From Darksidea phi (Eukaryota; Ascomycota; Dothideomycetes; Pleosporales; Lentitheciaceae): a stretch of DNA of 64,000 nucleotides. The number at the start of each line of letters is the position of its first letter. Within the stretch, counting starts at the first letter, position 1. A model generated the notes under the pieces. The model saw only the letters and a list, made by a program, of their open reading frames with translations, searched no databases and had not been told where the DNA came from. The stretch covers positions 1 to 64,000 of the forward strand of contig JASJFT010000192.1 of assembly GCA_030770425.1 (NCBI GenBank), read 5' to 3'. Below, one piece after another: positions 22,543-63,561 of this stretch. A program made the position numbers and the translations under genes.

Positions 22543-23164
22543 AGGTTGAAGAGGAGGCACGGGGCGTGCAAGAACTCCATGCGTTGCACTCCATTATGGA
22601 CAGTCCGAAGGCAGTATTGTATGTTGCTGATCTTTTAGAGGTTTTGCGGATAGTCATCGCCATATATTAGGACATTATTACACTATATCCATTATCTACC
22701 CCCTCCCCCAGGAGCTTGGGCCACTACCCGGCGTGACGTCACGTTGGCTCCTGGGCTGGCTGTGTTTTTCGTGATTCTAGTTACCTTATTATGTTTTAAT
22801 GTTTCGATATCTTACGTAATAGTACAGGCAGCAACTATACGACAATGACAGCCCCCGATTTACTAATAATACATGTAGACAGTTAAACGCACCGACAACG
22901 CCGGACCCCTATAGTAGATGCTTGTACCTAGCCCTCTGGATCCTCGCGCTGCTTAACTAACAATATATCTCGGTACGGGTAACAACAACGACAGTAAGCC
23001 TCCCTAGCTAGGTATCCCCATCGTCCTCTACCCCTACGCCATCGTTCGTATCGTATCCACTATGGACACCAGCTCCATCTTCTACGTCAGGTATTAGCTT
23101 CCTCGATAGCCTACTAAGAAGGCCTTTTTCTCTATCCTTGACTATCTTCCCTGTACAAGCTTCT

Positions 23165-23420
23165 TGTCGCGGAGCAGACGGCTCAGGGACTAAGCGCGAT
23201 CAGAGATTTCGCTAGGAACAAGGATTAGCCTAGTACTGACGGGTATTTGCTGAATCTCGTGATCCAACAGCGTCCAATAGAGTCCAGCAGTGTTGGTGTT
23301 AAGGCATAGTTAGGGGTCGTTTCCGTGTATAAAATACCGTCTTTTTTAACTTATAGAAATTAGAGCTTTTACTTTTAGAGACTACGTACTATAATAATTT
23401 ATACTAAAATTACTATAATA
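23165..23420 (+). repeat. 5' LTR (256 bp) of Copia element
   Basis: Starts TGTCGCGGAG and aligns over its full length with 28464-28719. Its first ~120 bases keep normal composition, while the inner half is RIP-mutated (for example GTGTATAAAATACC where the 3' copy has GTGCATAAAATGCC). Confidence 0.88.
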
Positions 23421-26400
23421 GTTATAAGTCTAGATCGTAACTAATTACTTTTAAATAATAATAACTTATTATTCTTATTATTAATATTAATTAATATATA
23501 GAGAGCTAATATCCTTACTATTACCCTTATTATCGTTAGAAACTTCTCGACGCTTAGAGAACTATTATTATTAATAATAAATACTAAAGAAGATCCCGTA
23601 GTAATATACGTTACTATTATCTTTAAAACTTAAAGTAACTAGTATAAATAGCTATTTATCTTTAAGAATAAAGCTAAATAATATAAAGTTTAGAAATATT
23701 ATAATTCTAATCTTAAAATAGTATTAGATATTAAGAAGCTAATAAAACTCTTACTTATAACGTATAAAGCTAGTATTATTAATATAGCTTAGCTATTATC
23801 TAATAATCGAATATTATATAGAATTAAGCTTATCTAATATTAAAAAGAGAAGAAGGACTATAAATAACTAAAGAAAGGTCTAAAGATAATTAACTTAAAG
23901 ATTAGTAAAATAATTATAGTAATAAATCTATATTTAATATAGAACGAGAAAGACTTATAGAATTAACTTAAGGTACTAAAGAGGTATATTATACCTATAG
24001 ATACCTTATAATATTAGAAACTTAAAGCTAAATATAGATAATTATAAATATTCTTATATAGTAAGAAGCTAGCTAACTAGCTATATAGCTAGATTAAGAT
24101 TATAAATAAGTATAAGACTATTAGTCTTTTTAACGTTAAAATACCTTATATATAAAAGGACTTCGCGAAAGTATACTATATATTTAATACTAAGTATAAT
24201 ACCTTAGCTTTCTAAGATATTCTAAAGGCTTAATATAATAGAGTAGAAGTATAATTATTATAATACTATATTATTAAATTCGAGTTATTTCTAAAGGTAG
24301 TTAAACTAGTTATAATAACTAGATATAATACTATAGCTACTACTTAACTTATTATTATTAATATAGATAATAATAATAGCTCTAGTAATAATAATAATAA
24401 TAATTAGGAAAAAGAAAATAATAGAACCCTAAAAATATATCTTTATAGACGAGTATATTAGTAGATTAACTACTTTATACTTAATTCTTTAATAAAGAAA
24501 TATCTTAAGAACTATACTATAAGTATTAAAGTTAAATACTAAGTTAATAAAGTTCTAAAGATTAATCTAATACTTAAAGCTTATATTAACGAGACTATTA
24601 AGTATTTAATAAACTATATTAAATAGAAAATAGCTTAGTTTACTCCTATAATACTATTTAGCTTTAATAATAAGACTTACTTATTAGAACTCTTAACTTA
24701 TATAGTTTATATAATCGACGATATAGCTATACTAATAGGTAACCTAGTAGTACTTATTAGAGATTAAGATACTATATAAAATAAGTATTTTTATAATTAC
24801 TAGATATTAGATTTAGGTTCGAATATATATATTATTAACTTAAACTTATAAGTTAAATAGAAATAAAAGTATAATATTATAACTTATAAATATATTAGTA
24901 CTAGTACTAGAGTTATAAAAGTTAAAGCTTAGAACTTTATAATACTTAAAATCTATACTCCTTATAATAATATAATAGAGATCTAATTAATATATATTAT
25001 CTTAGTCTCTAGCTTTATTATTAGTATAATAGGACTAGAGAGGTATTATATTATTAATATTTATTTCGACTTAGAATACGATATATTATATTATAAAAAT
25101 TAGAGTAATATACTTACTCTACTTAAATACTTAAATAGTTACTAGCTAGTTAATACTAATACTATACGAAGGCCGTATATTAAGCTATTATCGTCGTTTA
25201 TAACTAGTTATTAAAAGTTATATACTTTAAAAGTTATATAGAATATTAGTAATTATATTACTTACTTAATATAGGGATACCCTAGCTAGAGAATAATAGC
25301 TTATCTAATAAATACCGTCTATAGAGTTATTATTAATAGAACTAATAATTAAAAGCTATATAAAATATATATTAAAATAAAACTTATAAAGTAAATTTTA
25401 TATTATTAATAGGAAGATTATATAATATAACTATTTAAATATATATTATTAAATATCGTTTAGCTTCTATTAATAGAAGAAGAGTATCTTAATAGAGATA
25501 AATATAAAGGCTATAATATTAATTAATATACTAAGTAGTATAAAGTAGAAATATTTTCTAGTTATTTAAAATCTATTATTAATTACTAGGTTATATAGAC
25601 CCTATATAAGATATAATATTAATTTAAATATAATATTATTAAAGTATAAACTAATAGCGAGTAAGAATTTAGTATTTTATCTAATCTATTTAAATAGATC
25701 TATAATAACCTAGATATTATATATAAAGAGCGAGCGCCCTATATAAATAAATAGAATAGAAGTACTAAATACGCTAGAGTAATATTAGTTATATATACGA
25801 AAGTATTATAACTTTAGACTAATCTATCTAAATTACTATTAAATAAACTATTTTGAATAGTAGTATATATTCTTAATAGAACGTTATTAGAGAAGCTAAA
25901 CTAGAAAATATCGTATAAGCTTATCTAGAGTAAGAAGTCTTAAGTTACTTATATATATTCTATTAGCTATAAAGTCTATATACTAAATAGATAGCTTAAA
26001 AAAGCTAATAAGCTTAAGAGTAAGGTATTAATAGATTATTTTATTAATTATAATTTAATAAATATCTATTATATCTAGTTACTAATAAAGGACTAGATAA
26101 TTCGAACTCGTAATATTATATTTAACTTAAATAGCTTCTTTAAGAACCTAAAAGGCTATATTAGAGAGTTAGTTATTAAGAAAATTATTAAGCTACTTAA
26201 TATACCTAATATTTAATATCTTAAGAAAATTAGTATTAATAATTTATTAATACTATATTAACTAATAACGAGTAAAATAACTATACCTACTTCTCTAACT
26301 AATACGTAGATAGGGGGTAAGAAATAGTAAGATAATTAGATATAGTAAAATAAGATTATTAAAAAGAATATTAAGTTTTATAGAGGATTACTTTTACTAG

Positions 26401-28463
26401 TACTTTTAACTCGCGCTAATTCTAATTCGGCCCGTACTAATCCTAATTAAAAAAAGAACTTTAAAAACTCTTTAAATAATACTATAATATCTTTAAATAA
26501 TACTTTAATATAATAAAATTAATTAATAAACTTATTACGAGAACTTAATATAATAGAGATACCTAGGTATAGTTCTAATTAAACTAGAAATAATACTCTA
26601 AGAAGACGAAATCTTAATTTTAATAAGTCTAATATTATTTTAAAAGAATACTTAGTATAGTTAACTTACTTAAGTAATCTATATTATTAAGTATATCTAC
26701 TATTCTATATGAATACTAATAATATTATATATAACTATCTATATAGCTTTATTATAATAGTAAGATAGAACCTAGAATATAAGATTTACTAATTATAATT
26801 ATCTAAGTTTTTAAAAAACTTTTAGTAGTTAAGTAGTTATCTATATAGTAATTAGTTTTAAGTTATTACTAATATAGAATATTATTTAATATAGGTAAAA
26901 GAATACTTTATAAAAATCTTACTTTAAGCTACTAATATTAATATAAAGATACTACTATTAATATAGATATTTATCTATAAAATTAATATAAATAGCTATC
27001 TCTTAAAGTTTAAGATCTAAATTATAATTTAAGGTAATCTATAATAGCTATATAGTAATACTTATACTACTATACTAGTTACTTACTTATTTCGTACTTT
27101 ACTTATAATTATTAATTAGTTTAGTCTAGAGTTAAAGTAATATAATATCCTAATAATCTTTTTTAATATAAAGCTTAAGAAACGTACGTATATAAGGATA
27201 TTAGATAGTTTTAAGTATAATAATAAGATTCTAAAGATACTATATACCCTTTATAGACTTAAAGAGATACTATTATTATAGTATAATAAACTAAAGAAGA
27301 TATTAAATTAGCTTAGTATATAAGAAGTAAAAGGATTTTCTTATATATATATTAATAACTAGTTAATTCTATTTATATATATTAATAATATTATTATAGC
27401 CTATTACCTTAAGAATACTAGACTTTATAAATATTTTAAGATAAATCTTATAAACTATTATAATATTAAGAAGCTAAATAACTTAAAGTAGTATTTAGGG
27501 ATTTAAGTTATATAGAATATAAAGAAATAATTAATTTAGCTCGTATAAAATATCTATATTAATAAAGTTATTAGAAAGTTTAATATCTAATTAGATTCTT
27601 ACTTTATAGAAATACTACTTATAGTAAATTAGTATAAGCTATTTACTAAGAAATCTAATAAGATATATATAAAATATTATTAACGACTAGTTAACTATCT
27701 CGTATATCTCGTATAGTAAATACGACCTAATTTAACTTACTCTTATAGTCTATTAATAAGTTATTTTATAAATCTAGAATAGTAGTATATAGTTTTAATT
27801 AAGTATATATAATAATATATTAATAAGATAAAGTATTATATTTTATAAAAGATAGCTATATAATATAGTAAAGTAGTTAAATATAATATAATTAACGACA
27901 AAATAATTAAATAGTCTAAAGCTACTAGTAATTTCCTAGAAGTAGCGGATATAGTATTTACTAATAATATTTATACTTATTAAAGTAGCTAAAACTACCT
28001 ATTTTAACTATTTAATATAATTATTAATTAGAAATTAGTTTAATAATATATTATTATAAAGAGTACGACTAAGATAGAACTACTCGTTCTAAGTCTTACT
28101 AGCTTAGAGATAGCTAAGTAGTTAAGACTATTTAAAGGACTTAACCTTAAACTTAATAAGATACCTATTATTTAGTATAATAATTAGTAAATTATTAGTA
28201 TTACTATAAAGTAAGAGGAAAAACTTAATACTAAGCTTAAATATATTAATATTTATTAGAGCTAGATTTAATAGGAGGTTATCTATAGCCGCCTTAATAT
28301 ATAATAGCTACCTACTACTAAGATACCTACTAATAGATTTACTAAGATCCTTCTAAAGTAAAAGTATATATAGTTTATAAGGTAATTAGGCCTCGTTAAT
28401 ATTAAAAGCCTAATTAAATAGGTTAGCTTTAAGAGCTATAAGTACCTCTAAGCTAAGGGGGTA

Positions 28464-28719
28464 TATCGCGGAGTAGATAGCTTAGGGACTAAGCGTAATT
28501 AGAGATTTCGCTAGGAATAAGGATTAGCCTAGTACTAACGGGTATTTGCTAAATCTCGTAATCCAATAGCGTCTAACAGAGTCTAGCAGTGTTGGTGTTG
28601 AGGCACAGTTAGGGGTCGTTTCCGTGCATAAAATGCCGTCTTTTTCAACTCATAGAAATCAGAGCTTTCACTTTCAGAGACTGCGCACTACAGTGATTCA
28701 CACTGAAATCACTGTGACA
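28464..28719 (+). repeat. 3' LTR (256 bp) of Copia element
   Basis: Mirror image of the 5' LTR in damage: its first half carries C-to-T and G-to-A changes, while its last ~140 bases look unmutated and end CACTGTGACA. The next five bases are the CTTCT duplication. Confidence 0.88.
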
Positions 28720-28724
28720 CTTCT

Positions 28725-29058
28725 CCTCTAGCCTACGCAGACGATATAACTACCTCTCGATGAAACGCCTATTTTCGTTATATAGGTCCTCGGACAGGAA
28801 CATGTTGTAGGTAACTACTAATAGCTATACGAGGATTCTATCGCCGCTCGTTTCCTTAAATATATCAAACGTATAGTTAGTTTGGTACTAATAGTTATTA
28901 TAATCGAGGAGCCCTGTCGACAGTACTTCCTACCTGTAGCACTGGGGATGCTCCGCCGGGATATTCGAAAGGTCAATAGCGCCGTATTCGAATACCAAGT
29001 TGTAGTCTAGTTTACTGTCCTGCTAAAGGACCAGGCGAACGATCGTTGGCGAAGACAT
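28725..29058 (-). pseudogene. Degenerate ORF in body of retroposon-like copy 1
   Basis: From a minus-strand ATG at 29058 the frame reads MSSPTIVRL and continues through polar, Glu/Arg-rich sequence (FIER, LYRLRRLEEK) to the Copia insertion. It is interrupted only by TAG codons where a C-to-T change in CAG is the simplest explanation. It resumes less clearly beyond the Copia element (below 23160). The product is not recognised. Whether it belongs to the repeat itself or to a captured host gene is open. Confidence 0.4.
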
Positions 29059-29414
29059 GATATGGTAAGTTCGAGAAAGAGGTAAGGAAGCTGGTTGGGG
29101 ATAAGAGATGGATGTAGTGAGTGGGATGCTGGTATCATCGCAGGCAACTTTTATACTGTGGGCGGTAGTGTAGGTGTGCTAACTTATCGCTACCGCTGTT
29201 TGTCTCCCAACCGCCTCAATGTTCGAAACATCACCTCGTCGCTTACGGTCGACAGTACTTTGTACAGCTCTACAGCTCTATTATCGTGTATAAGGTGTGG
29301 GTATGGCACCTCTACTGTGTACAAACTCCTACTGTGTCTCGTGCGGACCTTTACAAACAGACTCCCACTATGCAAATCCAAATCAAAAAAATAAATAAAA
29401 AAAATCCATTATCT

Positions 29415-30131
29415 TCTTCCAGATAAGCTATAGAATAACCATTTTTCTTGTCGCAATAGACATAGGGTAGGCAGCATCGAGAATTATCGTTAGGGCGAGT
29501 AAGTTCCAACGGAGCAGGTTAACTCAGGAACCGTGCCATATTAACCCACATGTGGCTTATAGATCCAGTAATTCTTCTTCATTCTCTAATTTCAGAAAGT
29601 AACGTATTACAAGAGTATAGCCAGAGCGGGTCGACTATATCCTCTACTAGTGTACGTACCCTCTCATGCATGGATACTTAGAGTTTGGTGATTTGGTTAG
29701 AATGAAGATTTATTGGCCAGAAGAGTAATCACTTATATCACATGCTAATGACAGTTGTTTTTCGCCTGTTTCTCTCAGTGCGCGCTGAAGCAAGGTTGCC
29801 TTGCTCTTGGGGTGGCGGTGTCCAAGCTGCACCGCCAGCTGCGCCCTGCGCCGATCATAGCTTTTAATCCTTCCACCTGAATACGGAAGCCACAACAGCG
29901 ATCCTTTTATCCTAAGCATATTTTCATAGTTGTACATGGGGTCATTGTCATGAAACTTCGTTTACGAATGTGCACTGCCTCTTTCTTTTCCCCGTACGTT
30001 GATAAGAACGGAAATCCATAAAACTCCATAAAGCCTCTCTATACTTTTGTGAATAGAATAACAAACGGCGAATTACTCTATGTGACTGCGCATCATACCG
30101 TTGATTAGGTACCGGATCCTTAACACGCAAC
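29415..30131. other. Spacer between transposon block and small-protein gene
   Basis: No gene or domain was seen. A minus-strand frame (29710-29937) has no recognisable content. Confidence 0.4.
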
Positions 30132-30512
30132 ATGGGTCTCTTCAAACTTATCAGGAGCAAACTTCCGCCCCATTCCGCCAGCAACAGCACCTCAGACTCC
30201 ACACAAGCGCCCGAAATCACCGCGTTAGGTGCTGCAGACAATCTCCAAACACAAGCGCCCGAGAGACCTTCTACAAAATCCACACCTACACCATCGGCTT
30301 CAAGCACTAAAAAGCCTTGGGTCCCCTGGATGCCCAGAGAACCTTTATCTGAGCCGCTCCCAAAGAGCACAACACCAGACGATCCGGCGAAAGTTGCAGC
30401 TGATGAGGCAAGAAGAGAGCATGTTCGCGCGTATATCAAGGGAGGGGGAGAGACGAGGGAGACGGCTCGCCTTGCCACACTTGGGGCCTCGTTCGGTGGA
30501 GGTGACGGTTGA
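30132..30512 (+). CDS. Small Ser/Thr/Pro-rich protein with KPWVPWMPREP core (paralogue A)
   Basis: Single-exon frame of 126 aa starting MGLFKLIRSKLPP. The N-terminal half is low complexity (Ser, Thr, Pro). The centre carries KKPWVPWMPREPLSEP, and the C-terminal part has a charged helix (ARREHVRAYIKGG). The same order of features (basic start, Ser/Thr/Pro spacer, KKPWTPWMPKEP core, RRAYVRAYLRNG helix) recurs at 32366-32716, so the two are local paralogues. There is no signal peptide or membrane segment, and the function is unknown. The downstream antisense frame over this gene is a shadow. Confidence 0.6.
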   Translation: MGLFKLIRSKLPPHSASNSTSDSTQAPEITALGAADNLQTQAPERPSTKSTPTPSASSTKKPWVPWMPREPLSEPLPKSTTPDDPAKVAADEARREHVRAYIKGGGETRETARLATLGASFGGGDG

Positions 30513-30599
30513 ATGTGGTTGGAAGCACAGGATTTTGAACAACGTTGGATGACCTTGAGGGAGCTATTGCTAGTTTACTACCTATGGTAGAAATTTGCA

Positions 30600-31228
30600 T
30601 TCATAAACCCCAAAATCACGCACCAATAATCTGGCCCGAGAAGAATGTCATGGTTCTCATTGAGAGTACCATCATTTGATTTGGATTTGCATAGTGGGAG
30701 TCTCTTCAGAAGGTCCGCACGAAACACAGTAGGAGTTTGTACACAGTAGAGGTGCTATACCCACACCTTATACACGATAATAGAGCTGTAGAGCTGTACA
30801 CAGTAATACCGACGAGGTGATGTTTCGAACATTGAGGCGCTGGGCGAGAAATGACATGTGATGCCGAACCACAGCCTGGTTGGGAGACCAACAGCGGTGA
30901 GAGTACCATCATATCCGACCCAGAGATCCACCTCGACGTTAGAAGTAGAAACATGTCGCCAGGATCCGACGGCAGCGATGACGACCGATCTGGCTGTATT
31001 CTCACCTTTTGCCTCTTTAGGGGGCAAAGAATGCTGTCTAGCGTCCATATTGCCCAGTGGAACATCGTCCACCACGTCTTCCAAACTTAGCGCCTCGAGC
31101 GGAGGCTTCTTAACGCAGGAGACTTTTACGCTTGAGTCGACGACTGCAATTCTGGAAACCCACTCTTGGCGCTTCGTATACACCCCGACAGCAAGCTTTG
31201 GCATGTTGTGCACGCCACTGTTCGCCAA
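30600..31228 (-). pseudogene. ORF apparently disrupted by repeat copy 2
   Basis: A minus-strand frame from 31228 (MANSGVHNMPKLAVG) is open to the repeat, ending VEVDLWVGYDGTL at the target site. On the other side of the 222-bp insertion plus one duplicate, the frame that would follow reads NENHDILLGPDYWCV before a stop near 30600. This suggests the repeat landed in a coding sequence. The frame has no recognised domain and its 5' end is unclear (a stop lies just upstream of a possible splice acceptor), so the gene itself is only weakly supported. Confidence 0.35.
30676..30897 (-). mobile_element. Retroposon-like repeat family, copy 2 (5'-truncated, reverse)
   Basis: A 222-bp reverse-orientation copy flanked by a perfect 15-bp direct repeat TGAGAGTACCATCAT (30661-30675 and 30898-30912). 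Read on the minus strand, it begins at the CCGCTGTTGGTCTCCC point of the family and runs to the common 3' end CAAATCCAAATCAA. It lacks the ~110-bp left end present in the other two copies. 5' truncation with a long target duplication is characteristic of target-primed retroposition. Confidence 0.8.
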
Positions 31229-31322
31229 TTCGAGCGCGCCAGTGATTCTGCTTGCTGATCAAAATGCGAAAACCCACGGATGTCCAGCCAAAGAACTTGG
31301 GACTCGATCGTGTGTCAGACAT

Positions 31323-32365
31323 GTTATAATGGGCGCTTGCGTCAATATCTGTTTTTTGAGTTGAGATGGGATACTTCGTATATCATACTTGTGTGGAGCT
31401 TAGAGAGGTTGCCTTTATCTGGGAAGAGTTTCGTCGCTGTCAATCGCCGAGCGAAGACCTCCGTGGGAGTTTTCGACCCAGAGTAGGAGGTATATTTGTA
31501 GCTTGCTTCTGCCACAAGTCAACTAATTCCAGCGTTTAGGATAGATCCTATGATAGTATCGGACCTAAAGTTGACGTTCGTATTCAACAGTCTAGGATGA
31601 TAAATCCCGGAGATTGCGCGTTTTCTAGAGCGATCTGGATGCCGTTCTGTCCGCCTCAAGTGACTGGCCATTGGACTTGCGGATTACCAGTGCATGATAT
31701 CAGCGTAAGCCGATGGTAGGATAGAGGCTTCAGGTATTAGAGTACCCACTATGCCCACTGAAGCCCTCCGCTCATCGTATCACCATGACCGATACCGTGA
31801 ACAATTTTCAACACCGAGAGATCATCATTGCAAATGAGTTGATCTATTTCCCTTCCAACATATCCATCTCTCTCGGGTAGAACGAGCTGAATTGGCTAGC
31901 GTTTTGGGCATCAACGGCTAGAACATGGCTGCAGGAAGGCTGAAACATTGGGAAGCCAGGCAACAGAAATTCGAGATATAGCGCATAACGTATTTTCTAT
32001 CGAGATTGTTCCGATCCATAGTAGCTTTCGTTGATATCGACGATGGTGAGTGAAACGCCGTCTCACGACGCTCGTAAACGTTTAAGGCGCTAGACCGGTA
32101 TTAGTTGCACCGCCACGCTAGGCTGCGTTCGCCGAGGCTGAGCAACAATCTCACCGATCCTGCGGGAAGCAGGAAATAACTGGGCGTGATTCCATCCGGA
32201 AAGCGTGTTAAAGTCACACTAGAGCGGTTGTGCACCGCCTCTCTCACTAGGAAAGCCGTACGCCGGTCCGGAGAAATATATACGCTAGTAGCCGACTCCA
32301 GCGACTCAGCGTAGAGGAAGCTTACAAGAAAGCCTACGGAAAAAAACTCCACGGCCTTATTAAGG
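31323..32365. other. Spacer upstream of paralogue B
   Basis: About 1 kb without a supportable gene, repeat or RNA gene. Confidence 0.4.
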
Positions 32366-32716
32366 ATGAATCTTAACAAACTCAAGAACAAGCTCTTTCC
32401 CCACAGCACCACCACCGCACACGAGCCACCCTCTATCACATTACCCCCCAACCCACCATCGCCCTCAACAAAAAAGAAGCCATGGACGCCCTGGATGCCC
32501 AAAGAGCCCTTTTCCACCTCAACTCCATCTACCTCAACCCCCAACAATGCGTCCACAACGAGTAAGACGAGTGAAATGACCGAGAAAGAAAAGGAGCTAG
32601 AGAAGGCGTTAGGCGTTAGCGATGCGGAGAAAGCGGCTGCAGCGGAGGAGAGAAGGGCGTATGTTAGGGCATATTTGAGGAATGGGAGAGATAAGGCGAG
32701 ATGGGGTATGTATTGA
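32366..32716 (+). CDS. Small Ser/Thr/Pro-rich protein with KPWTPWMPKEP core (paralogue B)
   Basis: Single-exon frame of 116 aa (MNLNKLKNKLFPH...). It shares the design of the protein at 30132-30512: short basic N-terminus, Ser/Thr/Pro-rich spacer, the KKKPWTPWMPKEP core, and a C-terminal charged helix (EERRAYVRAYLRNGR). The spacer is longer and more Glu/Lys-rich than in paralogue A. No signal peptide or membrane segment is present. It is probably a product of local duplication with the copies now about 2.2 kb apart. Function is unknown. Confidence 0.6.
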   Translation: MNLNKLKNKLFPHSTTTAHEPPSITLPPNPPSPSTKKKPWTPWMPKEPFSTSTPSTSTPNNASTTSKTSEMTEKEKELEKALGVSDAEKAAAAEERRAYVRAYLRNGRDKARWGMY

Positions 32717-33597
32717 GAGCAGCTTGGAGAGGTGGTATCAGGCTAGCTCATATAGCTACTCCTGCATATACTCCTCATGCACGTATATAAGCGGCTTTCC
32801 TATAGAGCTATTACAATCAGCTCGGTCCTTAAACTATACATCTCACAGTGATTCACTCTGTGATAGGTACTGTTGTGGTATGGCTGTGCATTTTGGAGGG
32901 CGTAAGATGGATGTGCTTTAGAGCGTGGTAACGTTGTTGGTTCGTGAGCATGAGGTGTGATGCATGAACTGTGTTGCTGGAATGCTTCTTGTTATTGGAA
33001 GAGATATGAGCGGCTACGTGTAGTAGCAACGGGTTCAATATATACGAAAATCTAAATCCCATCTCTCGGGAACAAGTTTGCCAAAAGCTGAATACATCTC
33101 CGCTATATCGAGCCGCCGACCTTTCCACCGGGACCCAACTATCTCCTTCTTTTGACCCGCAACTAGCCCATCCAATGTCCCTGTGTCAATTTGAAAACGA
33201 TTGCATCTCGCTGAGACAGAGCTGCTTTCAGGGTTCGACTGCTCATTGTCCGGAAGCAACGGTTGGCTGAGCAAAATGTAACGGGAACGCACTCCCATGT
33301 TGCCGTAAATGAGGAGAACATCGTCCGCTAAGCCTTTCTCTAGGAAAAACTGGATGGTTCAGTAGGGTGCAAGAGCTTCATACTTGGATCCTAAAAGAAA
33401 GAAAAGTGGGCATACAAGCAATTCCCAGGTTGTTACTTCCGCATAGTTTCCGCCTCCACTGCCCGAACTGGGTCTAGCGTACCATCATCTTTCTAGTGCA
33501 TAGCCAAGATCCAGCAAGCCCGATACCGTCTCCACGCTGTGTCATGGGGACATCAGTGTAGAGTGAAGAAGATCAAGAGGCATTTTCCTGCAGTTTC
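32717..33597. other. Spacer, short unrecognised frames
   Basis: Minus-strand frames at 32853-33128 and 33035-33298 (the latter containing RCNRFQIDTGTLDG) have no recognised domain. They may be remnants linked to the HET relic to the right, but this cannot be shown. Confidence 0.35.
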
Positions 33598-52263: not shown

Positions 52264-52377
52264 GTCTGTCTCGTGGAGGCTAGGAGTTAAGCCGGACTCT
52301 CTTTGAGAAGAAGTTTGTACAGTCAAAACAAATCCTTCCTACATTTGCCTAAGAATCCACAAGTCTCACGGAACAAC

Positions 52378-53541: not shown

Positions 53542-53953
53542 GCTTGCTAGTCAGTTTCGAGTAAATTGAATCAAAGTGAACGAAGCTATGTTAGCCCAAA
53601 AGAGAATGGTGAACCGATGTGGTACGATGAGCGGGGAAATGACTGACATAAGCGATAATTGCGCTAACTCAATGTGGAAGCACGTGATTAGAGCTCTCCA
53701 ACATTATATGAGGATTATCGTACTTAGTAGTCGCTATAACTGCAATGAAGACGAGTTTATAATACATGAAAGTTGGAAGTGTCATGAGAACACCTGAATG
53801 ACTCACGCGCCATGAAGGGCGCTTTGCGACCCTCAGCTGGCCGAAGAAGCGATCTAGGCAGTCACTTGGCGCCATGCATCACCTTTTCGTCTTTCCTTCT
53901 TTCCGGAAACACCACTTCCATTTACACTCAGAAGGCCGTTAAATCTAAGAGAA

Positions 53954-54994
53954 ATGTGCATTACGTTGAAGGAGGCGGAGTCCAGCGATTCGAGAGCTGC
54001 AAGCCGCGATGCTTGTAGCGATGAGGAACAAATTGCGGACCACAAGCCGATAAGCTCCTCGACTTCGATAGAACTAAGCTTGAACAGTCATTCAGATGGA
54101 GATACTATGTTATCATTTCTGGACATCCCTGGAGGTAAGTAGAAGTGTCTGCAATGCTTCTAACAAATGCCAACCATGATAGAACTACGCAATCGCATCT
54201 ATGAACATGTTGTGGCTTGCCCAACGGATGTCAAAGCAGAACTCTGCTCTGCAGACATGGCAAACCCCACTTCCTCGATTTGCCGCATCAAAGAACCCCA
54301 GTTCAGGCACCCAATGGTGGTTTTCTCTTCAAAAGAAGACGACGAGCCCATCGTCGAGACTGCAAGAAACTACCACCGCCGGTCCCAATACCTTCATCTA
54401 ATGCATGTATGTCGCCAAATACGGGCTGAATTTCGCGTAATGTACCTACGACATCCGATCCGAGTGAACTATAGCACAGCAACCAACTACGTCAAAACAT
54501 TCTATCCAACACAACCCGTCTTCCGCGCCGACACGGAACGTCTTACCGGGGACATCCAGATTGATGTGGACAAAGTTTCAAATGCGAACATCGTAAGCCT
54601 ACTCCAGCACCTTTATCGACTTCCCAAGCTTCGATTCGAGTTCGGATACCAGCTTCCTAGTATGGACGATCCCGCTAGCGTACAACGCTCCCTCTTTGGA
54701 CGTCTGAACTCCGTGGGGTTGAATGAGCTGTTCAAAGGCCACGCAGACGCTTGGAAAAAGCACCTGGGCGCCAATATTGGACGCGTGTCTTTCTTCACAT
54801 GGCATACATCGGATGCTACCACGGATGCTCACCATTTGGAAGTTCATTTTAAGCCGCATACACCGGGGATGAACGGCTATGGTACCAATTTGCCTGGGTC
54901 TGAGCATGGAAGTTTGGGCCCTATTCTCAAAGATTTAGGTCTGAGTGATATGAAATGGATGACAGTCCAGATCCGCCGCTTTCTTGGTTCTTAG
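53954..54994 (+). CDS. F-box-like fungal protein (paralogue of 48-kb gene)
   Basis: Two exons, 53954-54134 and 54183-54994, with a 48-nt phase-1 intron (GTAAGT...GATAG), giving 330 aa. The junction creates FLDIPGELRNRIYEHVV, followed by LMHVCRQIRAEFRVMYLRHP, the two signatures of the fungal F-box-like family also present in the gene at 47899-49042. The first ~55 residues are Ser/Asp-rich and probably disordered. The C-terminal half (HLYRLPKLRFEFGY; MKWMTVQIRRFLGS) has no recognised domain. The intron splits the same Gly-Glu codon boundary in both genes, which supports common descent. A role as an SCF adaptor is possible but unproven. It is intact. Confidence 0.75.
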
Positions 54995-55268
54995 GCGGCG
55001 CGAGGTACTAGTTACGTGAACTCTGTTCTCGAACTTGCCCGCTCCCAATACCTTTCGACCTTCGAGAACCCTCACCATTGAAGCATGTGTTGCGTAAAAA
55101 AGGTCTTTTGCGCACCGAACTTTGGATAATACGCATCTTAATAACCATATCTTATTATTCCCTAATGCAGAAAACATCGAGCCATCTTCCTTCTACCCTC
55201 CATCGACACCTTCACATTGATGAAAACCTCCCCAAAGAAGAAAGAGCCCAAGAGTTCCATCCAACCCC

Positions 55269-55796
55269 TCATTGATGTAGCAGAATCCAAATGCCCACAA
55301 CTGCTGCTCCGACCACGATAACAATAATACACCCTATCAAATAAACCCCCAAACACGCATTCCACTCATCAAAATCGATCTCCCACCACCTCCTTCTTCC
55401 CGCTAACTCACGCCGTTCCCTCCTCCGTCTTGGCGAGTAAAACAGCTCCGGAATATCGCCGCTGTTGTATGATTCCGGGATCGATGACCCGGGCCCGTCA
55501 TTTCCGTAAATGGGAGGAGGAAGGTAACGTAGTAAATGTTGCCGAGGGTCGGACTTCTGAGCGTGGGAATTGTGGAAGTCAGGTTTTCCAGCTTTAAGGT
55601 CATCGTTAATGTCGGAAAAAGTGTCGAAGCCCTCTTCGCGCCTAGCGTCTACGGTAGTATGATGATGGTCGTAGGCAATGTCAATGGTGCGAGCCGAAGT
55701 TAGGTGGCGGTTCAACATTCTGTTCATTGCCCCTCGGGCTTCGTGGGTTGCGGTTGAAGCGCTAGCCCTTGTATTGTCGGATTCTGAAGAAGGCAT
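55269..55796 (-). CDS. Tail-anchored membrane protein, function unknown
   Basis: 175 aa, single exon, start MPSSESDNTRASAS. Most of the protein is hydrophilic and probably disordered, with a basic cluster (SPRRRRERRELAGRRRWWE) just before the acidic segment IDFDEWNACLGVYL. A single C-terminal transmembrane helix follows (LIGCIIVIVVGAAVVGIWILL), ending only two residues later. This geometry predicts a tail-anchored protein facing the cytosol. No family was recognised. Confidence 0.7.
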   Translation of the reverse strand: MPSSESDNTRASASTATHEARGAMNRMLNRHLTSARTIDIAYDHHHTTVDARREEGFDTFSDINDDLKAGKPDFHNSHAQKSDPRQHLLRYLPPPIYGNDGPGSSIPESYNSGDIPELFYSPRRRRERRELAGRRRWWEIDFDEWNACLGVYLIGCIIVIVVGAAVVGIWILLHQ

Positions 55797-57638
55797 GGTG
55801 AAATTTTGGGAAGGTTGACTTTGTGTTCGTTGTTCTTGAGGATGCGTTTGGTGGGTGGCCCGCGACGTTTGTGCGGTCTCTAGGGTTTATGAGAAGGGTT
55901 TTTTTGCGTTAGGAGACCTCCTTCGCTGGCCGTTCGCTCGTTGCAGGAAACGGGTGTTGAATTGTTCGGGGGTCACGCCGTGGACGGTTACGGCAATTAT
56001 GCTGTCTTGCATAGTGGATACCTTCAATGTATAGCGCCAGCAGGGTCGCAGTTTATCACGTCCAACGAAACAGCCTCCACGACGTACCAGCCCTCGAAGG
56101 CCGCCAGGATATACAGTACGATTCGCAGGTTGGTTCTCTCTCAGTAAAGTTGTCGCGGTGCAATGATTCTACGCCAAGATAGCGGCCCTGCTTGGTAACA
56201 TGGTCTCTCGTTGTCTGAGATTCGCGCGTACAACAGAAATTAATGCCTTCCACAAATACGATTGGGTATGGTCACTTGCTGATGTCACGCATGCAGGCCT
56301 TGATAGTGAAAAGGGGAAAGTTTCACCCAAGGCCGAGTTCTGCAATTCAATCTCCCTTCTAGTATTCTGCAAAGAGGCATCTGACTCCGCCAGCTGCGTT
56401 CCGCGAGAACTCCGACATAGCGAACCCGTCTCGCTAGGCCCCCGGTCTCGATATGCGGGATGATCGTCATGCAGCGGTATCAGAGATGGCTGATTTTCCA
56501 ATGCGAAAGGCGTCCAGTTGGCGAATACACTTGCCCAAAATATCTTTATCGCCCCAAAGTTCGGCATCTTACGATTCGGATGGCTGAAAGAGAAGGGAAT
56601 GTTGGCGGTGACGCGCAATATATGCGTGAGTCTGAGCGATCATGCCATGCTTAGAGAAAATTACGAAACCTCCAACGGGTTTGGGTGTGAGAAGGCACTT
56701 CGAAGAGTGTTGTTCTTAAGGACGAACAGGAAGAATCGCGCAAAACCGGATGCTTGGTCCAGACACGTCCTGTTCGTTCACATGCTACGACTGATTGCAA
56801 TCATATGCAAAGTTCAAAAGAAGCGCTGTCTCTGGAAGCTTTGTTGGTAACCGCGGGAAATTGCGCCTAAAAGAACGGTCACTGTAGTAATAGTCTTCAG
56901 AAGATCAAAGACCTGGGATAAATTGTGAGTGTAACTGTCTTATCAACCACGGCATACATCAATATTTAACCGTTATATTTCTTTGTTTATGACCTTCGAT
57001 CTACTAGGGCGATGAGATGGAGAAAGTAGCATTTCTCGTACCTTTGGTTATGCTGTGTGGCTATTGCATAACAAGATCACGAAAACAAAACAACCAATCA
57101 TAAATTGAAGGCGGGAATCAGTGACTTGTAAACTGCAAGAACTCCGGTAACGCGTATCGTGGACCGAATCTCCATACGACACGATGCTGAATTGGAAACT
57201 TCGCGTCGTATAGTGTTCCAACGGTCAACTATCTTAGGGCGAAAATTCACACTCCCCACTCCACACCGGCTATTAGGATGGTGCCAACGATGAGATATGA
57301 CCAGAATACTGGGTTGCTTTACTGCTATAAATATTTGTATGCAATAGGTAATTCGCCGGCAGATTCAAATGCTAACACTTTCCTACAGCGGAGCATCTTC
57401 GGCCAACCTGATCCACAGTTATTTAGGCACGGATTCGAGCAACTCTTCCACGGCTCAGTACCTCAACAGCACCGTGGAAAAACATATTTTTACCCAAAAA
57501 CCATAATTACGCACTCCGTAATGCGGGTATAAAAGTCTGTCCTTCTTACCTCAAGCTTCATCACCTCAAAGCATCTTCCAACACACTTCCCACGTCTAAT
57601 ACAACACTCAAAACGTTCCCCACGATAAATCGCCCATC
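55797..57638. other. Intergenic spacer
   Basis: About 1.8 kb. Overlapping frames on both strands at 56169-56850 have no domain or splice logic and look like chance. The last ~120 bp contain the promoter of the secreted protein at 57639. Confidence 0.45.
57528..57534 (+). promoter_or_regulatory. TATA box upstream of secreted-protein gene
   Basis: TATAAAA lies 111 bp upstream of the ATG at 57639 and is followed by GTCTGTC, the same bases that follow the TATA box of the dioxygenase at 52256. Confidence 0.55.
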
Positions 57639-58361
57639 ATGGTCAAGTTGACTGCGATTCTCTCTGCGGCAACCCTGGCGCTCCCTTTGCTCACGGCCTT
57701 TCCAACCACCGATCACCACACTCACCACATCGAGCACGACGAGCGCAGTGAGTAACACTGATCTTGCACTGCAATCACCACCATAGCGGTCTCGCTACCT
57801 TGAAATATTGCTGACATTTACCTTCCTTGATTGCAGGTCTCGAGAAACGCAAAATCTGGCTCGACTGTGCGGCCGCCTGCAACCCTGAGGAGAAAACCTT
57901 TCAACAGCGGGTCTGTTGGGCTGTCTGTGAAAAGTCGAAGTTTGATCACGTATGTGTACCACTCTAGTCCACATACACACAGCCCGCGCGTCAGCATCCT
58001 TTCCATCCCACGCTGCATCACATCTCAAAATGAAGAGCATCTCTATTATCTCGCTAACAAAACACAGAGCAAAAGGCTCAACAAGAAACTAATGCGCGCT
58101 TTTCTCAGGGTCTACTATCCCGAGAGGGAGGGGGAGTACGCACACATGGGACACGTACGCCTCGAGAAAGAGATCCTTCAGCTGATAGGACATAAAGAGG
58201 AGCGCATTCATTTTGTGAGTTTGCATTTATCTGTTTCTTTTATCTTGTCTAGTGGATAGGTGTATGCTAATATGGTCGGAATACAGTTGGATTATTATAT
58301 CATCGCGCCCCAGGGACCTCCTCCGATCAACTGGGATGATTACTTTGGGGGCGGCGCCTAA
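57639..58361 (+). CDS. Small secreted protein with Kex2 site (candidate effector)
   Basis: Four short exons, 57639-57747, 57837-57949, 58068-58214 and 58287-58361. All introns are GT-AG (89, 118 and 72 nt) and phases agree, giving 147 aa. No single reading frame shows the gene. A signal peptide (MVKLTAILSAATLALPLLTA) is followed by a short His-rich pro-segment (TTDHHTHHIEHDE) ending in LEKR, a Kex2 cleavage site. The mature part begins KIWLDCAAACNP and continues RVCWAVCEK (four Cys in two CxxxC pairs), then a basic helical stretch (SKRLNKKLMRAFLRVYY), ending DDYFGGGA. No family was recognised. Secretion, small size and processing make it a candidate effector or secreted peptide. A TATA box lies at 57528. 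Confidence 0.75.
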
Positions 58362-59125
58362 TGACGGTCAAGAGTTTGACGCGTAAGGGTAGTGTTGGAT
58401 TTGATATAAAGCCGTACGGGGGCCCGGTATGAGTGATTAGAGAAATTATTCGCGGTTCATGGCCTTGGAGGCTTGTGGCGACGGGATTACCGGTGCTTCT
58501 ACGTACGGTGAACGTTGGGCTCCACTACCAGCCGTTAGCTTCCACTTGAGATATAAGTAGGCAACTACATAGTTGTTCCCCTTCAGTACATTTAGCTCGA
58601 TGCTGTTGATGGTGCGATGACGGGTCTGCTGGAACGAGTCACGTGATCAAAATCAATATATTAGACCCCTACCAATTCCGGTTCACTCCCCTAATTCCAT
58701 TCAGGGACTAGCTTAGCATACTCTGATGGTCTACAGCTCCGACCTTTTACTCTTCAATACCCTTGAGAGACGTCGCAAGCCTCAATCCATCTATCATATT
58801 GCTTCAATCCGTCTCAGTCTTTGATTCTGTCTTCCAGCATGCTACAGCTAGGCTAAACTCGCACTCGATAATGGTCTTCGGCTAGCAATCAACATCACGC
58901 ATTGACAAACGAATGGGCGTATGCATAAATTTACTGAATCCAGAGACGCGAACGCACAACGCTACATCAATGTAGTGAAGTTGAATGCGGAACATCACAC
59001 TATTCCTTCGTTAACTATATATAGGTAATATATAATTGTAAATCTGCGCGGATCCCTCTTTGATATCACGCACCTACAACTTATGATAGGGCAGATAAAC
59101 CAACACTTCCGCACGACATAACACC
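58362..59125. other. Intergenic spacer
   Basis: No gene seen; only short frames without domains. Confidence 0.4.
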
Positions 59126-59491
59126 ATGCATCCAGAACACGTAAGTGTCTTGCCTTTGTTCGCGTGTTGCATAAGCAAAGGCCAACAAATAGCTCGTACG
59201 TACTCCGCGGCTCAAGGTATGCAGGACAGACTTCATTCGCACATGGGTGCAATAACAAGTATCGCCAACAGAACAACGCTGCCGTTCCTACTCAGGGCGA
59301 GTCTAAGTAACATATTATGGGAACTCGATACGCAACTGAGGGATCTTCGTTTCTCAATATCTACAGAGGATTGCAAGGCGAATAAACACCTGAGCGACAT
59401 CGAGAAAACGGCTCGAAGACTACCTACGCTTCAGGAGGATCCGTTATATCTACATACAGCTACTAATAGAAGCCGATGGAGAAGAACGTGA
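59126..59491 (+). CDS. Uncertain small hypothetical protein
   Basis: 121-aa frame starting MHPEHVSV. A GTAAGT directly after the fifth codon and an AG near 59181 suggest exon 1 may be very short. An alternative downstream frame (RYIYIQLLIEADGEEREHL...) stays open past the stop at 59491 to about 59640. These observations hint at a spliced gene, but no consistent model could be built. No domain was recognised. Confidence 0.3.
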   Translation: MHPEHVSVLPLFACCISKGQQIARTYSAAQGMQDRLHSHMGAITSIANRTTLPFLLRASLSNILWELDTQLRDLRFSISTEDCKANKHLSDIEKTARRLPTLQEDPLYLHTATNRSRWRRT

Positions 59492-59910
59492 ACACCTCGG
59501 GAGTAGCGGGGGTGATGTCATATCGCAGGATCGTGCGTGGGAACCTTCAGCATTTGTATACAACAAGGGTGATAAATCAGGTACGTATCGGTCTGCAAAT
59601 GTAGTTAGGATAACACCAATCGAACGAAAGCATGTAAAATCGTAAAGTGATCAAATTGCACGCTGAGTATAGTACATAATCATGAACGTTGAAGCGACGC
59701 CGCTCCCCCTGATATTGCAGTGCTATAGATACAAAGATACATGTCGGGTATCGAACGGTATGTGATGGAATGCGCTCAAAAGAAAACTCCTCGCTCAGTA
59801 AGAAATGGTCATCATCGTCGGTAATCATACACATCCGCTAGAACCTATCGCCATAGATCCAGCATAGTTCGGTGGAGCTCGGTACATAATGGCGGAGCCA
59901 TAACGGTAGC

Positions 59911-60376
59911 TTAGACATGGTCATGACCTGGGTGCATCAGCAACTGACCGTCACATGTATGTAATAAGGAAGAACTTACGACCGAGAGCCTTCCCCCTCT
60001 TCCCAATAGCCTTGGCCTGATTCTGTTTAATCTTGGCCAACCTGGCTTCCTCCTTAGCCTCCAACTCCAAGCGTCGCACATGCTCCCGCGCCTCTCTAAC
60101 AGCGTTCTTAGCAGCGAAGAGCGCGCGGTCTGCTTCGCGCTCTGCGGCTTCGGCGCGCATGACGCGCTCGCGTGCGGCCATTATAGAATCATCTTCTGTG
60201 CCAGACTTGTGCAGCAGCGAGTGCCGTTTGGGTGACGTGGCGTTGGTGGTGGTGATGTCGGGGGAGGAGGAGCGACGGCGGGAGAAGAGGGTTCGGCTGC
60301 GGGTGGGTGAGGTGGTAGATGTGGTGGGTGGGGGAGGGGAGACAGTGGTTTCTTTGTGAGAGCCGAAGAGAGGCAT
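59911..60376 (-). CDS. Conserved small coiled-coil protein
   Basis: Two exons, 60376-59980 and 59927-59911, with a 52-nt phase-1 intron (GTAAGT...CCCAG), giving 137 aa. The tiny last exon supplies the conserved ending ALGRHDHV. An unspliced reading instead ends in an unlikely FFLITYM. The N-terminus MPLFGSHK and a Ser/Pro/Arg-rich linker (RTLFSRRRSSSPD) precede a long charged helix, SIMAARERVMRAEAAEREAD through AREHVRRLELEAKEEARLAK. This layout, ending in LGRH[DY], is one I recall in many Pezizomycotina as a small uncharacterised protein. There is no membrane segment. The promoter of the AVT-type transporter gene is not shared, as both genes are on the minus strand. Confidence 0.8.
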
Positions 60377-61129
60377 GTTTGGATGTTAAGGGCGAGGGTT
60401 TGTAGGTGGAAGAGAAGAAGTGCTTGAGTGTGTGATTTCAAAGTTGGACGCGAGGACTGTTATTTGATATGGAAGGATAAGAGTACTTGTGGAAGACCGG
60501 TGCTGTTTATATGCCCTTTCCCTTTCTCCTATGTCATTGATGCCGCGTGCTGGCCCCGGCAAGCAAGATCAAGATCGCGGACACGTGTGACGTCAGGATC
60601 AGCCTCGCTCTCCAATCCTTCCGTATCACGAGTGAGGTCATCGCAGCCACGGCATCATCAATAATTGGCATGAAACACATCACTAAAGCATTGAAGCAAG
60701 CGATGGCATTGTGAATGTTAGGTCTTATTTTGGTAGTGCGCTTGCGGAGAGATGGTGGGTCTTTGTATGCGGCTTGGACCCTTGAGTCTTGGGGCTAGTG
60801 AGCTTATCCCGATGACTTGCTCAGGGTATGCGCCGAGTTATCCGGAATACTTGTCGAAAGAATATTTTGCCGTCAGCCTGCTAGGAGCCGCGCACCTTGA
60901 TGCGAAGGAGTTGTAGAGTGGAGATGGCGCCGCATTCTTGGGCTGGTGCCCTGATCGTCATCGCATCCCGCCCACGAACGTGTAGCCAATCGCTAAAATT
61001 CATGCGTTTTGACAAGATATGATACATTTCAACGGTTGCCCCTAGAAAAAGGAATACTCCATCTATCCATTGCGCGCGCACCATGCAAAGCCCAAAACAC
61101 CCATGTATGCATGCAATAAACCCAAGACA
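60377..61129. other. Intergenic spacer
   Basis: Contains the promoter side of the coiled-coil gene and the 3' side of the transporter gene. No separate gene was recognised. Confidence 0.45.
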
Positions 61130-62944
61130 TCAGCTACATTGGCCTTCAGACGAATCACCACCCGCCATCTTGCCCATAGTCTTGAACAGCGAAATAGCCA
61201 TAACCGCGCATCCAAATCCCACTACAGCCATCGCAATGTACGTTTTATTGCTTCTTTTACTAAGCTTAATATAGCACAGTGGCGGTAAAATATACGCTAG
61301 CGCGCAAGCCGATGTTGCGCCGAAGAGTTCGAAGACGACACCGAGGTCGCAGGTCATAAGGGAAAGCACCATAGCAGAGACGACGAGGGCCGTGGTGAAG
61401 ATCATATGGCGGTTCGGATGGTAATGCTCGTCGGGGAACCAGTAGTTGTTCATCACTTCACGGCACACGAATGCTTCGAGGGGTAGGGTGGTGAGCATGT
61501 TAAGGCCGAAACAGAGCCGAGCAATGTTGACCATGAGGTTGTCGTTGGGGAAATTGTTGAGGACGTTGCCTAGGGTCTTGTCGCCAAACGTGAGGTAGCC
61601 GAAAAGTGCCATGACAAGGCATGCTACTAGTGATATACCGGTGCTGTAGTGCGTTACTCGTGAAAAGCGGTCGATGGTGGGCTTTCGTAGAGAGCCGTAG
61701 ATTAGGAGGGAGTTGTGGTGGCAGACGAAGGCGAAGGAGATCACTCCTATGGACTCAAATAGTCCTGAGTGGATTACGATGGAGCCCCGCAATTGGCCGC
61801 GCGACTCGGCGGGGACACGGAACGACTGGGTGATCACGGTGATGATGATTATGGTCATGCTGATCAGAGCAAGACCGCTGGCTTTGGCAAGCTGTTAGAC
61901 GTTAGTGCATGTGGTGCATTGGGCTGGGAAGTATTTGCCTTGGAAATGTCTCGGTAGAGAGAAAGAGGATACGAGATGCCGAGAATCAAGATCACGATGA
62001 CGGCTCGTCGGTTCGTGAGGAGCCACAGAAAGGACATGTCGGACAGGGAGGGAAACAAAGCGTCCATCACACGTGGTATCGTGTCGCCTACAATGACGCA
62101 GAAGGCTACCATGCCGCCGAAAGCGCTGCCCCGGTTAGCATCATTGCAACATTTGTCCCATATTGTACGTACAACAGCCATTGTGCCAGCGATATGGCCA
62201 CCAGCCCTGACTTCCCAAAACAATGCTCGACTGTCGCCTGAAACGAGTCGGTGCCGCTGAGCTTGGAATTGATGACAATGAGGCGTATTGTCCAATCCAC
62301 AGTAATTGTGAGGCCGATGAGGAGGATGGTGCCAGTGATGAGGCCTGCGTTGCGGAAGGCGTAGGGTTGCCCGATGATACCAGCCCCTCTGCACCTTGTG
62401 AGTTGTATTCCGGTGACGGGTTCGAATATACGGTCCCCACTCACATTATGCTATTCGCCATATTCATGAAGGCGCTGCGCATCCCGCTCCGAGGTCTGGC
62501 GCTTTCCAGATGTTCCTCGGGGTTAAATGCCTCCTCCGCAACCGTCACGCTCGGCGCCTCGATGCCCGTAAGGAGAGGCAGCCGCTGCACTCGTTCCCTC
62601 CCTGGCGCATCATCACCAATGTAATCATCCCCATCCAGCTCTATCCAGTCATCGCCTCGCGCATCGCCGCCGTTCATGCTCCTCCGCACCGGATCATCGT
62701 CAAAGTGCACCCGGTTCGGCGTCCGCGGCGTGCCCGGAGGCCGCGGCTGCGCAAAAGAAGACTGACGCTTGCCGTGGCCATTCGGTCTGCCGCCTGGCGC
62801 CGCTGGCGATGTCGAGGATTGCCGTGACGATGACGGGGAAGGGGATTGTCGGCGGGCGGGGCTGAGCTTTGGCTCGTGTTCGACGTCGGAGTCGGAGTCG
62901 GAGTCGGATGGGTGCTCATGCAGGAGCTTCTGCGACTCGCTCAT
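61130..62944 (-). CDS. AVT-type (SLC38-like) amino acid transporter
   Basis: Four exons, 62944-62445, 62388-62173, 62125-61939 and 61891-61130, giving 554 aa. Introns 1 and 2 are GT-AG (56 and 47 nt); intron 3 (61892-61938, 47 nt) appears to use a GC donor (AAG|GCAAAT) with branch CTAAC and acceptor ACAG. The ~150-residue N-terminus is acidic, Ser/Pro-rich and cytosolic. The membrane domain begins NMANSIIGAGIIGQPYAF and continues SFQATVEHCFGKSG, FAFGGMVAFCVIVGDTIP, SFLWLLTNRRAVIV, FAFVCHHNSLLIYGSL, and NMLTTLPLEAFVCREV. About 11 helices are expected. The family moves neutral amino acids across the vacuolar membrane. Each splice join restores the family's conserved string, which fixes the model. 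Confidence 0.92.
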
Positions 62945-63202
62945 CGTGGCATTGTCGAAGGTAGACGCGGGCTGAGAGTCTTGTGAAAGGTGGTGTCAGC
63001 GTGCGTGACGCTCCAGAAAGTTGATGGCCCCTGTTGGCTTCTAGGCCGGAAATAGAATAGCGTGCCAAGGGCTCCGGAGGCGAGTGTGGGGGTTCCAGAC
63101 CCCTCAGTCATGCGTCCACCGGGAACCCTTCAATGTAGATTTATATTCATCGTCGAGAGCATCTCTCGAAAGCTTGCATTCAGATTGGTATAATCTTTCT
63201 AG

Positions 63203-63561
63203 TCCCCTCGCCCGGGAGTTTGGGCCACTACTCGGCGTGACGTCATGTTGGCTCCTGGGCCGTGTTTTTCGTAATTCTATCACCTTATTATGTTTCTATA
63301 TTTTGACATGTTCTATAATAAGACTCATCACTACCGCTGTTGGTCTCCCAACACCCTGCGGTTCTGTAGCACATGTTATTGCTTGTCGCCTCAATGTTCG
63401 ATGTTCCAAATATCTCCTCGTCGGTATTACTGTGTACAGCTCTACAGCTCTATTATCGTGTATAAGGTAGGGGTATAGCACCCCTACCCTGTATAAACTC
63501 CTACTATATTTCGTACAAAACTTACAAAATGTCTCCTACTATGTAAATCTAAACCAAATAC
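63203..63561 (+). mobile_element. Retroposon-like repeat family, copy 3 (internally deleted)
   Basis: 359 bp flanked by a 9-bp direct repeat TCTTTCTAG (63194-63202 and 63562-63570). The first ~110 bp match the left end of copy 1 (GGGCCACTACTCGGCGTGACGTC), and the last ~235 bp match the right ends of copies 1 and 2, so the middle ~800 bp of copy 1 is missing. Several C-to-T changes relative to copy 2 suggest mild RIP. Confidence 0.8.

Follow-up and report, generated by a model that had tools for sequence, protein, structure and literature searches.

Splice-like block boundaries in a non-autonomous, probably LINE-dependent retroposon family of the fungus Darksidea phi

Introduction

The SINE-R-VNTR-Alu (SVA) elements of hominid primates, which are about 1-2 kb in length, are non-autonomous and non-coding and carry a variable-number repeat in their middle, traits shared by the fungal retroposon family described here, which was detected in a 64,000-nt stretch of the Darksidea phi genome (assembly GCA_030770425.1, contig JASJFT010000192.1, positions 1 to 64,000; hereafter the window). 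SVA elements are moved in trans by a long interspersed nuclear element (LINE) (PMC7353768) and splicing has shaped their subfamilies (PMC6139936). The fungal family differs in its host, in its shorter repeat array and in that the splicing proposed for it removes short introns inside the element, whereas that of SVA joins outside exons. The spliced, polyadenylated RNA of SVA has its possible parallel here in the splice dinucleotides at block ends and the occasional A tails, both of them features of the DNA copies. The likeness is thus one of way of working; homology with the SVA components Alu and HERV-K is not expected.

The MINE/WEIRD elements of Magnaporthe are retrocopies of a non-coding RNA of ~1.1 kb, made by a LINE and flanked by 10-20 bp duplications (PMC2104539). 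That study encountered no solo WEIRD, the copies being fused to a 5′-truncated MGL LINE and, in two cases, to Mg-SINE (PMC2104539). Like these, the present family appears to consist of fungal, LINE-made retrocopies of a non-coding RNA with target duplications; unlike them, no LINE sequence was found in its copies and it has its own 3′ end, the comparison being one with the published description. Identification of the unit as a MINE, a WEIRD-LINE chimera, was rejected on the grounds of this 3′ end, the lack of a consistent long reading frame and the lack of similarity to the LINE-like loci read.

Among fungal short interspersed nuclear elements (SINEs), Mg-SINE and AfuSINE2 are also non-autonomous with target duplications. 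Those of AfuSINE2 measure 4-14 bp, the families described with it being tRNA-related (PMC5063351), while the 3′ end of Mg-SINE resembles that of its partner MGL (PMC2104539). Unlike AfuSINE2, the unit has no tRNA-like head recognised by ARAGORN or Rfam and reaches 1.0-1.3 kb; unlike Mg-SINE, no partner LINE end was found for it. A SINE in the strict sense has a unit of roughly 100-700 bp, against 1036-1283 bp here, and a head derived from an RNA polymerase III (pol III) gene (tRNA, 5S or 7SL), which neither ARAGORN nor Rfam detected; the unit accordingly fails two strict SINE features, length and pol III head. The family is not described in the passages of PMC4905642 or PMC4112212 consulted, and no such fungal family was met in the literature listings and passages searched; this does not show that the family is unpublished.

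The family is genuine, its kind of retroposon is known, and it has one feature that is unusual and testable. We consider it probable that the family is non-autonomous and LINE-dependent and that its intermediate was an alternatively spliced non-coding RNA made by RNA polymerase II (pol II). If so, it would represent an independently arisen fungal counterpart of SVA, and would indicate that a high-copy retroposon can develop out of a spliced, non-coding pol II transcript where few LINEs are detectable and where mutation resembles repeat-induced point mutation (RIP). Its copies would also record the past alternative splicing of one RNA, readable from DNA.

Family size, unit and ends

The genome assembly comprises 51.35 Mb in 477 contigs, and the window belongs to contig 104. 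A preliminary description of the window sequence had recognised three copies and proposed a dispersed retroposon family with variable-length duplications, 5′ truncation and occasional A tails. All of this stands; not supported are the long copy as a possible parent and the 359-bp form as a SINE-like basic unit. The further copies that it suggested looking for proved abundant, as a RIP-tolerant 22-mer pattern for the 3′ end gave 376 exact matches genome-wide and none with the control, a lower bound given that no mismatch was permitted. In genome DNA searches the best 40 of 848, 318, 329 and 817 first-look candidates were scored, and 65 distinct copies or pieces were extracted from the window and 94 loci.

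Of 24 copies longer than 1 kb, 23 extend from the 5′ end (or at most 7 positions from it) to the 3′ end and measure 1036-1283 bp, the remaining one (L078) missing its 5′ part. Apart from RIP variants, full-length copies open with CCCCTCCCCCAGGAGCTTGGGCCACTACCCGGCGTGACGTCACG and finish with CACTATGCAAATCCAAATCAAA. Near the 3′ side lies a variable-number tandem repeat comparable to that of SVA, with a unit of 35-38 bp present one to three times in copies above 1 kb by script count. Ten translated copies have no consistent long reading frame, on which ground a coding function for the unit was rejected. The basic unit is therefore 1.0-1.3 kb long and non-coding, and the 359-bp form is a shortened copy of it.

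Tandem head-to-tail pairs occur in two loci (L041, 202-1993; L086, 6-1915), where a truncated copy starts right behind a full copy's tail, as though tails were favoured for insertion. It is worth mentioning that in five contigs (C29, C42, C73, C80, C85), among the first 3′-end matches listed, the 3′ end of the element falls in the opening 75 bases, always in the same orientation (matches at ~48-75, plus strand), which probably reflects breaks in the assembly at copies of the repeat.

Insertion mechanism

Flanks were compared for 49 3′-complete copies with enough adjoining sequence, of which 26 are full-length. The 23 truncated ones include the 3′ half of copy 1 of the window, counted a second time. 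As the copies were collected by similarity searching, they do not form a random sample. Exact duplications of at least 9 bp were found at 17 of the 26 full-length copies (0.4% under random flank pairing), and of at least 8 bp at 9 of the 23 truncated ones (2.9% under random pairing). Their lengths, measured from the extracted flanks as had been proposed, vary from 8 to 17 bp over these 26 copies with exact repeats. The duplication starts with AT in 21 of the 26, and in 19 of these 21 the A is assignable to either tail or target. The script returned no exact repeat for the other 23 copies, at least two of which are misses, namely L003, whose repeat has one mismatch, and copy 2 of the window, which has a 15-bp repeat.

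Truncated copies share the common 3′ end and start at scattered positions of the model (461-1117, the entry at 461 being the recounted 3′ part of copy 1). Of 48 distinct copies, 4 have an A run longer than the usual AAA, and in one of these the run exceeds 40 A. Comparison of the ends by eye revealed neither terminal inverted repeats nor long terminal repeats (LTRs) belonging to the retroposon itself. Duplications of variable length, a 3′ end shared by copies truncated at different 5′ positions, and the lack of inverted repeats and LTRs are features of non-autonomous retroposons that depend on a LINE. Target-primed reverse transcription by a LINE-type enzyme, as put forward in the preliminary description from the variable duplications, truncation, A tails and absence of inverted repeats, is well supported because exact duplications flank so many full-length and truncated copies, and we regard a LINE-type mechanism as highly likely.

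One locus (L005, 881-1306 on C100; also L043) holds two truncated copies head to head, 3 bp apart with their 3′ ends outward, an arrangement which might come from double (twin) priming.

Block boundaries and proposed introns

In alignment, the copies differ from one another by blocks with sharp, recurring ends. The 56 copies longer than 240 bp, all from the one genome, were aligned pairwise and yielded 880 gaps of at least 25 bp with good flanks. These were merged into 70 classes, and 59 were kept after 11 resembling tandem-unit changes had been set aside. A class was scored as positive when it started with GT or GC and ended with AG in at least a quarter of its pairs, ambiguous placement being allowed. 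In the sense orientation 13 of the 59 classes were positive, a number not reached by any of 1000 random shifts, which averaged 0.92 positives and never exceeded 5; in the antisense orientation two were observed and 1.1 expected. Wider merging (45 classes) gave similar values, with 13 sense positives against 0.80 and one antisense positive against 0.86. As some of the 13 positives share a boundary, 13 non-sharing classes were picked by support alone, blind to their ends, and seven of these were positive (0.17 expected, maximum 3) with none antisense.

These boundaries suggest seven proposed GT/GC-AG introns of 44-82 nt. With a slash marking the intron edge, they are AG/GTAACC..GGCAG/ (44 nt), CAG/GCAAGC..TATCAG/ (69 nt), GCT/GTACGAG..TCGAG/ (82 nt, absent from one copy, L066), GTAAGTTTG..GATGTAG/ (53 nt) and three candidates of 51 nt: GTATATT..TGTAG/, GTTTGT..TTATAG/ and one that begins GCAGCAAC or GTAGCAAC, ends TGCAG and is absent from three copies.

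A second feature is a fixed left end, GAACCCCCCAC, which has at least six different partners on its right among the copies: CAACAACG in 12 copies, CCTCCC in four, CCCCTACG in three, GCCACTT in two, and TAAGGAAG and GTAC(GC)TAAC in one each. AG precedes five of these six right ends (CAACAACG, GCCACTT, CCTCCC, TAAGGAAG and GTAC(GC)TAAC) in at least one longer copy each, compared with 6% for a random position. Five of the junction classes have two or more scored copies, and according to the script calls each of these five includes both copies that retain and copies that have lost the GTAAGT intron, which favours repeated processing over a few inherited deletions.

The length variants could instead have arisen without splicing, by the reverse transcriptase jumping at favoured positions, either inside one element RNA or from one such RNA to another. 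Switching of this kind at hot spots has been described for the LINE-made chimeras of Magnaporthe (PMC2104539), and GAACCCCCCAC, with its many partners, could be such a hot spot. The block ends lacking splice dinucleotides and the existence of a rearranged copy with an inverted segment (see below) would also be in keeping with it. However, jumping predicts neither GT/GC...AG ends in one orientation only nor AG ahead of five of the six right ends in a longer copy, and we consider it unlikely. An alternatively spliced pol II intermediate appears quite likely.

Several observations nevertheless weigh against splicing. Two of the seven non-sharing positives are local tandem repeats and were discounted; the remaining five still exceed every trial. 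Of these, two border on the 35-38 bp repeat array, one (alignment columns 1450-1491) has splice ends in just a third of its pairs, and a threshold of half the pairs leaves three positives, a number reached in 1 of 1000 trials. The class supported by the most pairs of any (113), a 35-bp indel, has no splice ends, nor has the internal junction of copy 3. CTRAY branch sites occur in three of eight proposed introns against a background of 12%, which is uninformative, and they were dismissed as too weak to serve as evidence of splicing. At the fixed left end, AG stands before CCCCTACG in one of the four forms seen and is missing before TAAGGAAG and GTAC(GC)TAAC in some longer copies, while six scored copies, including copy 1, have AGTAGATG or TATAGATG joined to GAACCCCCCAC, and none of the longer copies reveals the bases that would precede these two. 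In none of the copies read does a retained intron beginning with GT or GC follow immediately on GAACCCCCCAC. The comparison moreover covers 56 copies of a single genome, and splicing is here deduced from genomic sequence.

A master copy keeping the intron after GAACCCCCCAC was sought with a pattern for GT in that position and was not obtained, the two matches being a short form and a rearranged locus. The first (L095) measures 0.5 kb and is flanked by a separate duplication, TAACATCTTATG; its GT is part of the right-hand portion. The second (L096/L097; C20:91900-93780, minus strand) has both element ends and a large inverted segment. This segment is bounded by inverted CCCTATGTGAGTAT, with a short telomere-like GGGTTAGGGTTA stretch at one joint. 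If splicing is the right explanation, the start of the intron following GAACCCCCCAC would always have been removed and would hence go unseen. On a more tentative view, the copies may form an archive of splice isoforms in which one donor, its own intron start never copied, was used with at least six acceptors, and the helper LINE may be extinct or nearly so, about four LINE-like remnants having been found against at least 376 copies.

Transcription and helper element

Runs of five or more T would stop pol III early, and such runs occur in 23 of the 24 copies above 1 kb. ARAGORN predicted no tRNA in the window or in six loci. Rfam gave no family above its gathering score in the window, and on four loci searched at E-values up to 5 a single match was returned, below the cut-off and outside the element. 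Pol II transcription would be a better guess than pol III because of the T runs, the lack of tRNA and Rfam matches, the splice pattern and the occasional A tails.

An ordinary pol III SINE that has acquired random insertions and deletions would account for the target duplications, the truncation and the lack of coding capacity, and a putative B-box-like stretch lies near the unit's 3′ end (GTTCGAAAC). The length of the unit, its internal T runs, the missing tRNA or Rfam match and the non-random indel ends all speak against a SINE of this type, making it very improbable. A ribozyme or special fold at the 5′ end was also considered and rejected, with no Rfam hit above cut-off and fold z-scores for four copies that are not significant (5′ end, -1.2 to -1.5; 3′ end, -0.8 to 0.3).

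Searches for a possible helper were made with protein families. The reverse transcriptase (RT) family returned 150 scored matches of 367 candidates, most of them ~480 bp long, which we assume to be of Gypsy type. The long LINE-like RT matches among those scored lie in C323 and C433, plus one in C65 that is split in two; a search with the C323 RT led to C65, C433 and a weak match in C223, and the LINE endonuclease family added C440 together with a match below cut-off in C4. The locus on C323 (L014; positions 1-3713) is LINE-like with an uninterrupted RT frame of 328 aa and an endonuclease match, its 3′ end lying beyond the contig end. A further locus, on C346 (L090), presumably encodes telomerase, and RNase H matches in C112, C390 and C65 are taken by us to be cellular RNase H1 genes, a reading that does not extend to two further RNase H matches in C429.

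An RT-bearing parent sharing the 3′ end, which the preliminary description had suggested looking for, was not encountered in the loci read. In the sequence read at C323, C65 and C433 no 3′ end is shared with the unit, the 3′ end of C323 lying off its contig and C440 falling outside the comparison. Within that sequence, C323 (L014), C65 (L091) and C433 (L089) have chance-level matches of 10-20 bp to the unit and nothing longer, and so find no support as partners. LINE-type proteins seem rare in this genome, though RIP-degraded LINEs may escape such searches, and the helper may have been lost, left unassembled or degraded beyond detection.

The unit might itself have come from an autonomous LINE by internal deletion, the 5′ and 3′ untranslated regions being kept. 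Such an origin would fit the constant 5′ and 3′ ends of the full-length copies and a length of 1.0-1.3 kb, which is long for a SINE. It is opposed by similarity to the LINE-like loci that reads no better than chance (with the above restriction at the 3′ end of C323) and by the lack of a consistent long frame, and we judge it distinctly improbable.

Under the proposed model of a spliced pol II intermediate, a source copy or gene would be transcribed from its CCCCTCCCCCAGG end, the RNA starting at CCCCTCCCCC. This RNA would be partly and variably spliced, with the seven GT/GC-AG introns and a fixed upstream splice point used with several alternative acceptors, and would end close to CAAATCAAA, in some cases with a poly(A) tail. 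After nicking of A/T sites by a LINE endonuclease, the RNA would be reverse transcribed from the nick, giving rise to the duplications of 8-17 bp and the frequent 5′ truncation. Later RIP-like C-to-T mutation would then degrade the copies.

Copies in the window

The three copies of the window match one another and share the 3′ end CAAATC(C/T)AAA(T/C)CAAA, bearing out the original observation. Copy 2 is 87% identical to copy 1 over 189 bp, while copy 3 is 77% identical to the 3′ end of copy 1 and 82% to its 5′ end. Each lies between perfect direct repeats, for which the lengths first given hold for copies 1 and 2 (11 and 15 bp), that of copy 3 being 10 bp and not 9 bp. The absence of terminal inverted repeats is likewise upheld, as the two element ends differ from each other when compared by eye. 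The repeats of copies 1 and 3 were also recovered by script; that of copy 2 escaped the strict script.

Copy 1 lies on the plus strand between exact target-site duplications, ATCCATTATCT, at 22687..22697 and 29404..29414. From the alignment of copies, the 5′ part of the element, which begins ACCCCCTCCCCCAGGAGCTTGGG, occupies 22698..23164 and the 3′ part 28720..29387, followed by an A-rich tail at 29388..29403. A splice-like junction is present at 22998/22999, where longer copies have GTAACC...GGCAG, and a predicted donor, GTAAGT, is retained at 29065.

Copy 2, on the minus strand at 30676..30897, is 5′-truncated to 222 bp and has the exact 15-bp duplication TGAGAGTACCATCAT at 30661..30675 on the element's 3′ side and at 30898..30912 on its 5′ side. 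Copy 3 (63204..63561, plus strand) is a short form in which the first ~120 bp of the unit are joined to the last ~236 bp, with no GT-AG seen at the junction, between exact 10-bp duplications, TCTTTCTAGT, at 63194..63203 and 63562..63571.

Nested LTR element and neighbouring gene

Copy 1 is a retroposon of ~1.15 kb (467 + 668 bp) split by a nested LTR retrotransposon of ~5.6 kb (23165..28719), and its apparent length of 6.7 kb is due to this element sitting within it. It was considered as a possible long parent of the family; the extra 5.6 kb being the nested element, copy 1 was rejected as a LINE parent. An apparent 6.7 kb retroposon can thus be a short one harbouring another element. The LTRs of the nested element (23165-23420 and 28464-28719) are 256 bp long and 86.7% identical over 248 aligned bp; the 5′ LTR starts with TG and the 3′ LTR ends with CA, the remaining two LTR ends being mutated. 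Its insertion is flanked by a 5-bp duplication, CTTCT, at 23160..23164 and 28720-28724, the right-hand repeat opening the 3′ part of copy 1.

The nested element is AT-rich (21% GC) and RIP-degraded. It is marked by RIP-like mutation, because its (CA+TG)/(AC+GT) ratio is 0.11 as against 1.04 at 8053-9786 and 1.19 at 31000-62000 of the window. Retroposon copies are intermediate, with ratios of 0.68-1.03.

Elsewhere in the window, an open frame of 577 aa (8053-9786, plus strand) has 159 relatives at E ≤ 0.001. Among the 120 relatives listed, none has a Pfam domain and those named are fungal hypothetical or uncharacterized proteins, whose sources suggest a filamentous ascomycete of the Pleosporales as the probable host. 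The best named match, with 59% identity, is from Lentithecium fluviatile, and the other named matches are, we assume, also from Pleosporales.

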